Shown: positions 59,175-62,792 of the stretch, in pieces | Layout of the letters: the number at the start of each line of letters is the position of its first letter | How positions within the stretch are numbered: position 1 is the stretch's first letter | DNA from: Crossiella equi | GTDB taxonomy: Bacteria > Actinomycetota > Actinomycetes > Mycobacteriales > Pseudonocardiaceae | Direction: 5' to 3' | Length of the DNA: 64,000 nucleotides | Assembly (NCBI RefSeq): GCF_017876755.1 | Contig: NZ_JAGIOO010000001.1 | Coordinates: forward strand, 5,503,786-5,567,785 | Program-made: the position numbers and the translations under genes | Notes under the pieces: model-generated | What the model was told of the DNA's origin: nothing | The model's input: the letters and a program-made list of their open reading frames with translations, nothing else | The model's database searches: none

Positions 59175-60842
59175 ATGACCCAACTCGCCAGTAACAACGT
59201 CGACTACGACGTCGTGGTCATCGGCTCGGGCTTCGGCGGCAGCGTCACCGCGCTGCGGCTGGTGGAGAAGGGCTACCGCGTCGCGGTGCTGGAGGCGGGC
59301 AGGCGCTTCGCCGATGACGAGTTCGCCAAGACCAGCTGGGACCTGCGGCGCTTCCTGTGGGCGCCGAAGTTCGGCTGCTTCGGCGTGCAGCGCATCCACC
59401 TGCTGCGCAACGTGCTGATCCTGGCGGGCGCGGGGGTCGGGGGCGGTTCGCTGAACTACGCGAACACGCTGTACCGCCCGCTCAAGCCGTTCTACAACGA
59501 CCCGCAGTGGGCGCACATCACCGACTGGGAGTCCGAGCTCGCCCCGTACTACGAGCAGGCCACGCGCATGCTCGGCGTGGTGCCGAACCCCACGGTCACC
59601 CCGTCGGACGAGGTGATCAAGGACGTGGCCGCGGCCATGGGCGTGGCCGACACCTTCCACACCACCCCGGTCGGCGTGTTCTTCGACCAGCCGGGCAAGC
59701 CTTCGGCCGACCCGTTCTTCGGCGGCGAGGGCCCGGCGCGCACCGGCTGCACCGAGTGCGGCTCGTGCATGACCGGCTGCCGGGTCGGGGCCAAGAACAC
59801 CCTGATGAAGAATTACCTCTACCTGGCCGAGCGCAAGGGCGCCGAGGTCCACCCGCTGACCACGGTGACCGGCCTGCGCGAGACCCCGGACGGCTGGCGG
59901 GTGGACACCGAGCGCACCGGCTCGTGGCTGCGCAAGGGCCGCCGCACGTTCACCGCGCGCCAGGTGGTGCTGGCGGCGGGCACCTGGGGCACCCAGAACC
60001 TGCTGCACCGCGTGCGGGACAACGGTTCCCTGCCGCGCCTGTCCCCGCGCCTGGGCCAGCTGACGCGCACCAACTCCGAGGCCATCCTGGGCGCGAAGGC
60101 CCCGAAGGTCGACCCGGGCCGCGACTTCACCCAGGGCGTGGCGATCACGTCCTCGTTCCACCCGGACGCGGACACCCACATCGAACCGGTCCGCTACGGC
60201 AAGGGCAGCAACGCGATGGGCCTGCTCCAGGCCCCGTCGGTGGCCACCATGCTGCGCCACCCGCTCCAGACGTTGCGCAACCTCTCGGTGCGCAAGTGGA
60301 GCCAGCGCACGGTGATCCTGCTGGTGATGCAGAGCCTGGACAACTCGATCACCACCTTCACCCGCAAGACCTTCCTGGGCCGCCGCAAGCTCTCCTCCAA
60401 GCAGGGCCACGGCGCCCCGAACCCGAACTCCATCCCGGCGGGCGTGCAGGCGGCCGAGCTGGCGGCGGACAAGATCAAGGGCATCCCGGGCGGCGCGATC
60501 AGCGAGATGTTCAACGTCCCGATGACCGCCCACTTCCTCGGCGGCTGCCCCATCGGCGAGGACGCCGAGCACGGCGTCATCGACCCCTACCACCGCGTGC
60601 ACGGGTACCCGTCGCTGTTCGTGGTCGACGGCTCGGCGGTCTCGGCCAACCTCGGGGTGAACCCGTCGCTGACCATCACCGCGCAGGCGGAGCGGGCGGC
60701 CTCGCTGTGGCCGAACAAGGGCGAGGCGGACCCCAGGCCTGAGCAGGGCCAGGCCTACCGGCGCCTGCCCCCTGTGCCGCCGAACAGCCCGGCGGTCCCC
60801 ACTGCCGCACCGGGAGCGCTGCGGCTGTCGATCGTGAGCTGA
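59175..60842 (+). CDS. choD: GMC-family FAD oxidoreductase, ChoD (cholesterol oxidase)-like, with a four-Cys motif
   Basis: This 555-aa flavoprotein has an FAD dinucleotide fold at the N-terminus (VVIGSGFGGS; Gly17, Gly19, Gly22). The GAGVGGGSLNYANTLY block and the C-terminal NLGVNPSLTITAQAERAA region are typical of GMC oxidoreductases acting on sterols or alcohols. Length and position match M. tuberculosis ChoD (Rv3409c) at the same end of the conserved block. Residues Cys192, Cys195, Cys198 and Cys202 form CX2CX2CX3C, the spacing of a ferredoxin-type [4Fe-4S] site, unusual for GMC enzymes. There is no signal peptide. Steroid oxidation is inferred from synteny, not shown. Confidence 0.9.
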   Translation: MTQLASNNVDYDVVVIGSGFGGSVTALRLVEKGYRVAVLEAGRRFADDEFAKTSWDLRRFLWAPKFGCFGVQRIHLLRNVLILAGAGVGGGSLNYANTLYRPLKPFYNDPQWAHITDWESELAPYYEQATRMLGVVPNPTVTPSDEVIKDVAAAMGVADTFHTTPVGVFFDQPGKPSADPFFGGEGPARTGCTECGSCMTGCRVGAKNTLMKNYLYLAERKGAEVHPLTTVTGLRETPDGWRVDTERTGSWLRKGRRTFTARQVVLAAGTWGTQNLLHRVRDNGSLPRLSPRLGQLTRTNSEAILGAKAPKVDPGRDFTQGVAITSSFHPDADTHIEPVRYGKGSNAMGLLQAPSVATMLRHPLQTLRNLSVRKWSQRTVILLVMQSLDNSITTFTRKTFLGRRKLSSKQGHGAPNPNSIPAGVQAAELAADKIKGIPGGAISEMFNVPMTAHFLGGCPIGEDAEHGVIDPYHRVHGYPSLFVVDGSAVSANLGVNPSLTITAQAERAASLWPNKGEADPRPEQGQAYRRLPPVPPNSPAVPTAAPGALRLSIVS

Positions 60843-61247
60843 GGGCGGCCCGCCGCAACCAGCCAACACAAGGTACGGGACCGGCCAACACGAGGTACGC
60901 ACTCGGCCAACACGAGCGGCGGGGTCGGGTGTTGTCGGCGTGTTGGCCGAGTGCGTACCCCGTGTTGGCTCGTTTCGTACCTCGTGTTGGCCGATCTCGT
61001 CCGGCCTCCCGGGGCGGTCTTGCCGCAGGCGGCCTCCGCCGTTCGCCCTTGGTCCAACCCGCCGCAGGCGTTGGGCCAACCTGGCGTACCCGCCCTGGTA
61101 ACCCGGCGGTGGAGTTCACGCTGAGTGGGGCATCTCCTCCGTTGGGGTACGTCAGGTAGCTGATCCATCACGGAGTGTTCCGTCTGAATGTGACCGCTGG
61201 CACAGTGTTGGGGTGGATCAGCCGATAGAGCACCCTGGGGAGCGGGC
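60843..61247. other. Intergenic region of 405 bp, no gene seen
   Basis: Between choD and the monooxygenase gene. It holds the palindromic 22-bp repeat array (60861-60992). Nearer the next gene is a 9-bp inverted pair GCTGATCCA/TGGATCAGC (61159-61167 and 61214-61222), and between its halves ACGGA-N4-TCCGT (61170-61183), possible operator sites. Open frames here are short and biased only by the repeats. Confidence 0.6.
60861..60992. repeat. Palindromic array of six 22-bp-period repeat units
   Basis: Three direct units beginning CCAACAC at 60863, 60885 and 60907 (core CCAACACGAGGTACG) are followed by three inverted units ending GTGTTGG at 60946, 60968 and 60990. The spacing is exactly 22 bp on both sides and the dyad centre is shared at 60926.5. 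The arms 60861-60914 and 60939-60992 match in 47 of 54 positions around a 24-nt centre. It could fold as a cruciform or a giant RNA hairpin ending the choD transcript, or bind a protein cooperatively. Confidence 0.9.
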
Positions 61248-62792
61248 ATGAGTGCGGAGTGTGTGCTCGTTGTCGGGGGAGGGCCCGTCGGGCTGATGGG
61301 GGCGTTGCTGCTGGCCCGAGCCGGGGTGCCGTCCCTGGTCCTGGAGGCGGCGCCGGTGCGGCCCGCCATCGGGAGCCGGTCCATCTGCGTGCAGGGCGAC
61401 GTGCTGGACATCCTCGAGCGGGTCGGGCTCGGGGCCCGGGTCGCCTCGGCCGGGGTCACCTGGCACGTCGGGCGCACGTACTACCGGGAGCACGAGGTGC
61501 TCACCACGCGGCTGCCGTTCCGGCCCGGGTTCCCGCCGTTCGTGAACCTGCCGCAGACCGACCTGGAGCGGCTGCTGGACGAGCGCGCCGAGACCGAGCC
61601 GCTGGTGACCGTGCTCATGGGGCACAAGGTCACCCGGCTGCGGCAGGAGCGCGGGTGGGTGGAGGTCACCGCCGAGACGCCCGAGGGGGACAAGACCTTT
61701 CGGGGCAGCCACTGCCTGGCCGCCGACGGGCCCCGCTCGCACGTGCGGCAACTGCTGGACCTGCCGTTCCAGGGCTACAGCTTCCGGGACAAGTTCCTCA
61801 TCGCGGACGTGCGCGCCCCCTTGGCGCACGTGGCCGAGCGGCGGTTCTACTTCGACCCGCCCGCCAACCCCGGCCGCCAGGTGCTCGTGCACCCGCAGCC
61901 CGGCGGCATGTGGCGCATCGACTGCCAGGTGCCCGACAACTTCGAGCTGTCCGAGGCCAAGGACGACGGCACCCTGGAGACCCTGCTGCGCTCGGTGGTC
62001 GGCGAGGTGGCCTACGAGGTCGAGTGGGCCTCCGTCTACCGCTTCCACCAGCGCTGCGTACCGGCCATGCGCATCGGCCGGGTGCTGCTCGCGGGCGACG
62101 CCGCGCACGTGATGAGCCCGTTCGGCGCGCGCGGCCTCAACTCCGGCATCGCGGACGCGGAGAACGCCGCCTGGAAGATCGCCTTCGACCGCGCGGGCTG
62201 GGGCGGTCCGGTGCTGCTGCACTCCTACGACGCCGAGCGCCGCAACGCGGCCCGGGAGAACCTGCGCGTGACCGGCGAGACCATGCGCTTCCTCGTCCCG
62301 CGCACCGGCGCCGAGCAGGCCTACCGCCGGGACGTGCTGGAGCGCAGCGTGCACGAGCCGGGGGCCCGCGCCAAGATCGACTCCGGCAAGCTCGCCGAGC
62401 CGTACTACTACCTGGACTCCCCGCTCACCACGCCCGCGCAGCCCACCGAGATCGCCGCGTTCCCGCGCGACCCCGGCGAGCCCCGGCCGCCGCTGCCGGG
62501 CGTGCTGTGCCCGGACGCCCCGCTCAAGGGCCACGGCCGTCTGCGCCCGCACTTCGGGCCGGAGTTCCACCTGCTCACCGTGGCCTCCCGGCCGCGCATC
62601 CCGAAGGGCCCGCCGGTGCACGTGCAGCGGCTGGAGGAGGCCGCCGACGGCGGGGCGCTGGCCGAGGCGCTGCGCATGCCGCCGGGCTCGGCCGCCCTGG
62701 TCCGGCCGGACGGCCACCTGGCCGCCGTGCTGCGCGCCGGGGACCTCGGGGCGGGCCTGGTGAGCGCGCTGCGTCGCGCGACCGGGTGGTGA
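61248..62792 (+). CDS. FAD-dependent aromatic-ring hydroxylase-type monooxygenase
   Basis: This 514-aa class A flavoprotein monooxygenase (PHBH/MhpA-like) has three diagnostic motifs: VVGGGPVGL at the N-terminus, the AADGPRS (DG) motif near 165, and GDAAHVMSPFGARGLNSG (GD motif) near 285. The C-terminal ~115 residues form the thioredoxin-like or capping region, with no clear catalytic Cys. ATG start with GGGGAGCGGG upstream. Such enzymes hydroxylate phenols, polyketides or antibiotics such as rifamycin; the substrate is unknown. It probably has its own regulated promoter in the 405-bp gap. Confidence 0.88.
   Translation: MSAECVLVVGGGPVGLMGALLLARAGVPSLVLEAAPVRPAIGSRSICVQGDVLDILERVGLGARVASAGVTWHVGRTYYREHEVLTTRLPFRPGFPPFVNLPQTDLERLLDERAETEPLVTVLMGHKVTRLRQERGWVEVTAETPEGDKTFRGSHCLAADGPRSHVRQLLDLPFQGYSFRDKFLIADVRAPLAHVAERRFYFDPPANPGRQVLVHPQPGGMWRIDCQVPDNFELSEAKDDGTLETLLRSVVGEVAYEVEWASVYRFHQRCVPAMRIGRVLLAGDAAHVMSPFGARGLNSGIADAENAAWKIAFDRAGWGGPVLLHSYDAERRNAARENLRVTGETMRFLVPRTGAEQAYRRDVLERSVHEPGARAKIDSGKLAEPYYYLDSPLTTPAQPTEIAAFPRDPGEPRPPLPGVLCPDAPLKGHGRLRPHFGPEFHLLTVASRPRIPKGPPVHVQRLEEAADGGALAEALRMPPGSAALVRPDGHLAAVLRAGDLGAGLVSALRRATGW

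Follow-up and report, generated by a model that had tools for sequence, protein, structure and literature searches.

A genus-restricted family of 22-bp repeats that lies behind genes, mostly as inverted arms predicted to fold into giant hairpins

Eukaryotic rDNA carries arrays of short tandem sites for terminator proteins, the Sal box/TTF-I and Reb1 arrays. In bacteria, REPs lie mainly between convergent or same-direction genes, according to PMC3733652. Among the RNA 3′ ends of Streptomyces clavuligerus, 353 mapped ends are structured but U-poor (PMC8269248), so we take a missing U tract to be no bar to termination. We describe here an array of phased 22-bp units behind a cholesterol oxidase gene, its relatives in the same genus, and how they compare with these systems.

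The window is the whole stretch of DNA that was analyzed, 64,000 nucleotides of the host genome (G000, 9.44 Mb); G016, G055, G060, and G061 are other members of the genus, and numbers with the prefix L denote sampled stretches. The array starts 18 bp past the stop codon of a choD-like gene, whose product matched NF058674 with an E value of 4e-165 over positions 7–515 and a score of 550 bits, below the curated cut-off of 850. A set of six units, half of them direct and half inverted about a center at 60926.5, had been noted on an exact 22-bp period, and this geometry was confirmed. The spacing is exact within each arm; the direct units begin at the positions listed in Table 1, the inverted units occupy 60927–60948, 60949–60970, and 60971–60992 with cores at 60940, 60962, and 60984, and the center is that of a long inverted repeat with arms at 60843–60914 and 60939–61010 (72 nt each, 82% complementary). 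The reported arm agreement of 47 in 54 positions was also reproduced (60861–60914 relative to 60939–60992), compared with a best value of 31 among 20,000 random placements of the same geometry in the window. The description of unit content stood only in part: six units are present, but the full CCAACACGAGGTACG occurs in only two of them, the unit at 60883 (+) and the unit ending at 60992 (−), and the two innermost units, on the apex side, lack the GTAC part. When a 17-mer of the unit was searched with up to three mismatches, 6 matches were found in the window against 0.28 expected, and 5 of the 6 lay inside the array. As RNA, the array region had a predicted folding energy of −118.2 kcal/mol (z −9.6), which was equaled by none of 200 shuffles.

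Table 1. Positions of the features of the choD region, and of the composite repeats of G055 within their sampled stretches.
Feature	Sequence	Positions	Strand	Remark
choD-like gene (cholesterol oxidase, GMC family)	window	59175..60842	+	open frame; NCBIfam NF058674
253-bp species-specific stretch holding the array	window	60843..61095	.	from alignment with four other genus members
Unit 1, direct, outermost left	window	60861..60882	+	
Unit 2, direct	window	60883..60904	+	full unit; link GCACTC
Unit 3, direct, innermost left	window	60905..60913	+	core only, without GTAC
Apex between innermost cores	window	60914..60939	.	core start to core start, 35 bp
Unit 4, inverted, innermost right	window	60940..60948	-	core only, without GTAC
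Unit 5, inverted	window	60949..60970	-	link GCACTC, identical to that of unit 2
Unit 6, inverted, outermost right	window	60971..60992	-	full unit
Rest of the insertion	window	61011..61095	.	-46.1 kcal/mol, z -2.1, moderate fold
Decayed remnant of simple hairpin	window	61103..61129 (approximate ends)	.	counterpart right after the choD stop codon in four other species
Next gene, FAD-dependent oxidoreductase	window	61248..62792	+	tandem context
Composite repeat	G055, L290	5886-6606		
Composite repeat	G055, L292	8090-8815		
Composite repeat	G055, L293	7187-7928		
Composite repeat	G055, L296	7231-7944		
Composite repeat	G055, L301	867-1597		

Two familiar classes of element were rejected at this point. 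The array is not a CRISPR, as had been stated from the outset, since a CRISPR would have direct repeats kept apart by unique spacers of about equal length, whereas these units abut on the 22-bp period and come in inverted arms. Nor is it a canonical intrinsic terminator, which would have a T run with a short GC-rich stem; there were no terminator-like sites between 60600 and 61300. The U tract is absent at the choD array, and the feature of U-less terminators, a strong hairpin shortly after the stop codon, is present at the distance and with the z value given above.

Comparison of five species of the genus showed that the 253-bp stretch directly after the choD stop codon occurs in G000 only. 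No array follows choD in the four others (G061, G016, G055, and G060), where the choD 3′ end has a simple hairpin soon after the stop codon; 12 perfect pairs make up its stem in the first two species, and the stem in the last two is imperfect. In the G000 remnant of this hairpin the perfect stem is gone and another fold is predicted, with an energy of −23.9 (z −2.4) relative to −29.5 (z −5.3) in G061. Inspection by eye of the alignment with the empty site, whose program-placed boundaries are ambiguous, revealed no evident target-site duplication, which a MITE would have together with fixed terminal inverted repeats. The rest of the insertion (61011–61095) contains GTTGGGCCAAC and a GTAC, resembling a degraded unit; no second copy of it was found in the sampled stretches. 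The position of the array so soon after the choD stop codon might be expected of an element that regulates the cholesterol oxidase gene locally, but an array follows choD in none of the four other species, and many G000 arrays lie after unrelated genes. We therefore rejected an element specific to choD and regard a local regulatory role as almost certainly the wrong explanation. Conservation only after choD, which would have pointed to such a role, was not found: the four relatives are without the array there, and many arrays lie elsewhere. Absence from close relatives, proposed as a ground for dismissing the array, is thus true of choD itself and untrue of the repeat family as a whole.

The choD array belongs to a dispersed family of 22-bp repeats that is restricted to the genus. 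With up to one mismatch allowed, CCAACACGAGGTACG had 234 matches in G000 (119 forward, 115 reverse), whereas a reversed control had 3, and arrays were found behind many genes in three genomes; the check suggested in the original prediction, for many dispersed intergenic copies, thus came out in favor of a repeat family. A two-unit pattern had 271 matches in G000, 134 in G016, and 365 in G055, and among 60 genomes of the taxonomic family the only others were 4 in G019, which belongs to another genus, the remaining 56 genomes having none. A longer pattern, searched with up to three mismatches, was matched by G000 alone among 200 genomes of the order, in a listing that held no other genus members; within the genus it had 106 matches in G000, 225 in G055, 74 in G016, 21 in G060, and none in G061. 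The repeat family is therefore carried by three of the four other genus members and is almost absent outside the genus. Two cores within one mismatch stand at one gene end of G061 (L396), so the family may once have been present in this species and since been lost. In G019, three loci (L213, L217, and L221) contain cores with one mismatch each, three of them spaced 22 bp apart in L217; none of the three loci has an array by our criterion, and these spaced near-cores are either due to chance or a distant relative of the family. Among genome contigs the 15-mer was found in at least 120 stretches; in the 80 stretches listed it occurred once each, scattered over many phyla, and such single matches look like chance. 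One locus matching the 15-mer, L047 (Umezawaea tangerina), had no array. A phage origin was rejected, the array having no match in the phage collection; the 15-mer had a single match in each of 19 viral contigs.

Arrays were counted in sampled stretches, nearly all of which had been picked for repeats (among the first 40 only L208 and L209 had not, and L208 still had class B copies), so that array densities are not genome averages. The stretches include 206 of the 271 two-unit matches of G000, 172 of the 365 of G055, and 35 of the 134 of G016. Genes were called with a simple codon-usage script, not a standard gene finder, and arrays less than 1200 bp from the end of a stretch were dropped. Class B repeats, of which there are 12 in G000, were left out of the class A statistics and kept in the counts of intergenic gaps. 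In all, 149 class A arrays were found, 47 in G000, 15 in G016, and 87 in G055; the first criteria gave 39 for G000, and the figure of 47 reflects other criteria and more stretches.

The skeleton of the 22-bp unit is GGCCAACAC-NNN-GTAC-NNNNNN. Among 186 interior units of G000, the core GGCCAACAC had 1.8–2.0 bits per position, with 1.3 at its first G, the GTAC positions had 1.4–2.0, and the link positions 0.1–1.4. Core conservation is inflated by the near-exact core demanded of seeds; most units were nevertheless exact even where one core mismatch was permitted. The G000 links are diverse, with 70 distinct strings among the 186 units, indicating that most G000 arrays are not recent copies of each other. 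In 226 units of G055 the core is similar, and three link positions are conserved as well (1.6–1.9 bits), so the split between core and link is cleanest in G000. In G000 the distance between neighboring exact cores was 22 bp in 129 of 142 cases and 44 bp in the other 13; in G055 the spacing was 22 bp in 186 and 21 bp in 15 of 208 cases, and in G016 it was 22 bp in 43 and 21 bp in 5 of 50. These distances bear on the original suggestion that the sites would all face one side of the helix. G060 has a variant 22-bp unit, GTAC-SAGTTG-GGCCAACTCG-GC, with 201 matches genome-wide, in which GGCCAACTCG replaces GGCCAACACG; at two gene ends (L248 and L261) it stands where G000 has arrays. The consensus thus differs among G000, G055/G016, and G060, and the skeleton is common to all.

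A sharp core beside a loose link in G000, a spacing of 22 or 44 bp between all 142 neighboring exact cores, and a species-specific consensus on one skeleton, as with GGCCAACTCG in G060, are properties that would suit tandem sites, roughly two helical turns apart, for a putative lineage-specific DNA-binding protein. With the protein bound, an array could insulate its neighboring genes or act as a one-way block to RNA polymerase, two arms making the block work both ways. Against the first of these points, core and link are not cleanly separated in G055. We consider such protein sites, with their insulating or blocking role, unlikely, for reasons that also involve the structure of the arrays.

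As called, 99 of the 149 arrays are two-armed and 50 one-armed, although some of the one-armed calls are two-armed by looser criteria and, in G055, some form half of a widely spaced pair. Arms range from 1 to 12 units and occur in both orders, +..− and −..+. The core spacing of +..− arrays is 30–35 bp in G000 and 34–38 or 43–46 bp in G055, and that of −..+ arrays has a wider spread; the apices in G055 frequently contain a terminator-like stem, for example GGGTTGAAACCC. Of 29 two-armed class A arrays in G000, 28 had z values of −4.3 or lower on both strands, the exception being L194 (z −2.2 and −1.8). By comparison, the 10 one-armed arrays among the 39 G000 arrays folded did no better than shuffles; by eye, an ordinary hairpin lies near three of these ten (L185 5306, L187, and L188). 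A giant RNA hairpin, one of the options originally listed, is thus a fair description of most copies as far as predicted folding in G000 and the proportion of two-armed arrays can say. Pairing between the arms is loose, however. Variable positions covaried between arms in 279 of 584 comparisons in G000 against 252 ± 10.5 expected, and with the best register the p values were 0.016 for G000 (28 arrays), 0.49 for G055 (19), and 0.45 for G016 (4). Because the arms covary so weakly, we rejected selection for a perfect hairpin. The combination of a fixed core and loosely paired arms raises the question of whether RNA structure or a protein selects the arrays.

The one-armed arrays bear on this question through their orientation. 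Twenty-four lie by a single gene end, 8 near two ends, and 18 near none, and in 21 of the 24 by a single end the core is on the antisense strand (p 0.0003). Of the exceptions, L170 and L204 are two-armed on another reading, which leaves one of the three, but L196 among the 21 is two-armed there as well, and the cases are not all independent, since widely spaced −...+ arms flank composite repeats in G055. The polarity, with its two doubtful exceptions, would be expected of the DNA-binding protein just considered, but it comes partly from those widely spaced G055 pairs and includes at least one two-armed case, and two arms are frequent even between tandem genes, for which a single arm ought to suffice. 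The more specific proposal that the 22-bp units are sites of a fast-evolving sequence-specific protein, whose phased arrays stop RNA polymerase in a polar way, seems to us rather improbable. If it were true, a chromosome-wide system of protein-dependent termination or insulation would have taken over terminator slots in one actinobacterial genus, with palindromic arrays stopping polymerase from both sides and a binding code that shifted between species. Taken together, the near-invariant core, the weak covariation of the arms, and the many one-armed arrays with their polarity, none of which a hairpin by itself would account for, suggest that an additional sequence-specific factor, acting at the protein or RNA level, reads the units.

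Several larger or longer forms were seen in the same stretches. The longest one-armed array, L185 14057–14308 (G000:C1 about 2480057), has twelve direct units, or eleven by a second criterion, and its near-identical links suggest recent tandem growth. Class B composite repeats occur as very similar copies in L174 (9750–10130; G000:C1 about 1040750–1041130), L171, L173, L175, L208, L313, L317, and L319; of eight copies in a first count, six lay between convergent genes. Their interior consists of paired −−++ blocks of 22-bp units inside nested palindromes, and their outer tandem arms, judged by eye, are made of another unit of about 30 bp. The composite palindromic repeats of G055 (Table 1) are about 720–750 bp long, the other copies being 86–90% identical to that of L290; those of L290, L292, and L296 have − arms on the left flank and + arms on the right, and by eye two internal hairpins share a common loop sequence. 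Rfam searches at the gathering score gave no match in L171, L174, L197, and L208, and in L289, L290, L292, and L312 nothing at the arrays and only a cobalamin riboswitch away from them, an ordinary one at L289 4302–4413 (G055).

Arrays lie close behind genes. The median distance from array to gene 3′ end was 17, 11, and 18 bp in the three genomes, and 90 of the 149 arrays were within 30 bp of such an end. Their settings were convergent in 78 cases, tandem in 59, and divergent in 12, several of the last being in wide gaps where gene calls are perhaps incomplete. When gaps of at least 60 bp were counted with class B included, 8 of 246 divergent gaps contained an array, compared with 125 of the 517 gaps whose genes converge or run in tandem (three genomes pooled; odds ratio 0.105, p 5e-15); 70 of 132 convergent gaps contained one.

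We then compared orthologous gene ends, using as queries 34 array-adjacent genes, 17 from G000 (choD among them) and 17 from G055. Orthologs were dropped if they had less than 60% identity, fell short of query residue 85, had more than 40 extra residues, or had too little sequence after the stop codon. At least one end passed for 31 of the 34 queries, the exceptions being L183, L184, and the G055 gene of L297, and gave 95 passing ends; these are a part of all matches, with G060 ends mostly left out. An array or variant array was present at 14 of the 95. For G055 sites, the ortholog had an array in 8 of 16 cases in G016 and 1 of 15 in G000; for G000 sites, in 1 of 15 in G016, 1 of 13 in G055, and 3 of 7 in G060, where two had the variant. 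G061 had none, either at its 15 orthologs of G055 sites or at its 14 orthologs of G000 sites. The clearest old array site is a gene that we take from its sequence to be serA, with arrays of differing unit number in G000, G016, G055, and G060, whereas G061 has a simple hairpin there. Behind a presumably ClpX-like gene, G055 and G016 have arrays, and G000 and G061 have simple hairpins. Arrays are thus gained and lost behind genes, and some individual sites have a simple hairpin instead.

The explanation that we favor, with a confidence a little above even, is that this is a 3′-end repeat family whose two-armed copies are giant bidirectional hairpins occupying the terminator slot. We propose that units joined head to tail at 22 bp, for the most part in inverted arms on either side of a short apex, are placed just 3′ of stop codons, and that two-armed copies would be transcribed into a giant hairpin. 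That hairpin would take over the job of the ordinary 3′ hairpin, ending transcription, blocking 3′ exonucleases, or both, and between convergent genes one two-armed array could serve both. Arm length would change by whole units, probably through tandem duplication. The data show the family itself, its 22-bp rule, its place behind genes, its predicted folding, and several orthologous sites that alternate between array and simple hairpin; transcription of the arrays, termination or stabilization by them, and growth by duplication are inferred. The 50 one-armed arrays, the weak covariation of the arms, and the lack of both a U tract and terminator-like sites at choD speak against the explanation.

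If arrays occupy terminator slots, simple hairpins might be looked for at the array-free orthologous ends. A hairpin of −28 kcal/mol or better was present at 27 of 81 such ends, compared with 87 of 1455 random 90-mers drawn from the same kind of loci (p 1.4e-12), and absent from the other 54. Without the gene of L193, three of whose supposed orthologs (L241, L242, and L244) are probably paralogs, being without the flank common to G000 and L237–L240, the count was 24 of 77 (p 9e-11); orthologs of one gene are moreover not independent observations. Relative to other G000 gene ends, where such hairpins were present at 148 of 636, the excess did not reach significance (p 0.054; 0.16 with the L193 gene excluded), and the argument for a terminator slot therefore rests on location and on individual sites. 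The L193 paralogs and the gene-end comparison weaken the terminator-slot explanation and strengthen another, that a selfish or neutral REP-, BIME-, or MITE-like repeat spreads by copying, survives behind genes because insertions are little harmful there, and alternates with terminators as a side effect. The copy numbers in sister species, uneven from 225 matches of the longer pattern in G055 and 106 in G000 to 74 in G016, 21 in G060, and none in G061, would fit such a repeat, as would a choD copy found in one species of five, the larger composite repeats beside arrays, and the location of REPs, which likewise lie mainly between convergent or same-direction genes (PMC3733652, in part). However, G000 and G016 have no Y1 transposase, the diverse links (70 of 186) around a fixed core in G000 are unlike neutral decay, and arrays persist at some orthologous ends, as at 8 of 16 G055 sites in G016 and at serA in four species. 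A selfish or neutral origin is in our judgment fairly unlikely. The same gene ends (choD, serA, ClpX-like, and others) have a simple hairpin in one species and a phased array in a sister species, so that the effect of an array on transcription ends can be tested directly by comparing them.

Literature searches by unit sequence and topic, in a body of papers that includes few of the subscription journals, found no description of the unit, and among the papers listed for the sequence none concerned bacterial repeats by title and the 15-mer did not occur. Of the features of the REP/RAYT system, high intergenic copy number was found, with 234 matches in G000 and arrays in gaps between called genes. 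The palindrome and head of REPs were not: by eye, the consensus of the 186 interior units has only GGCC and GTAC as palindromic tetramers. For the Y1 (RAYT) transposase, PF01797 at an E value of 0.01 had no match in G000, G016, and G061, one in G055, and three in G060, with matches in 6 of 14 control genomes. A RAYT-driven REP was accordingly rejected, G000 and G016 being without the transposase, and the suggestion of a REP-like element, taken literally, failed on this absence from G000 and on the lack of a palindromic unit headed by GTAG or CGTC. BIMEs are made of regularly spaced REPs in alternating orientation; the arms here alternate in orientation and G055 has mosaics with other repeats, but the constituents are not REPs.

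In the parts of PMC2817692 and PMC3733652 that bear on the comparison, REPs and BIMEs share with this family many short intergenic repeats, inverted pairs, clusters, species-specific sequences, and a location mostly behind genes and rarely in divergent gaps; the present unit lacks both the 20–40 bp palindrome of the REPs described there and their GTAG or CGTC head. The units here are instead set at a 22-bp period, and an arm has between 1 and 12 of them. Arrays also resemble the I-shaped (U-less) terminators of GC-rich bacteria (PMC8269248) in that a strong hairpin closely follows the stop codon and no U tract is present, but differ from them in that very long arms, 72 nt at choD, consist of conserved repeated units rather than a short stem of free sequence. 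Simple hairpins of the U-less type occupy the same gene end in some relatives. With the Sal box/TTF-I or Reb1 arrays the family has in common short tandem sites behind genes and polarity, whereas its copies are dispersed on a bacterial chromosome and mostly have two inverted arms. On the features tested the family is no member of REP/RAYT; in its working it would much resemble REP/BIME or a U-less terminator.
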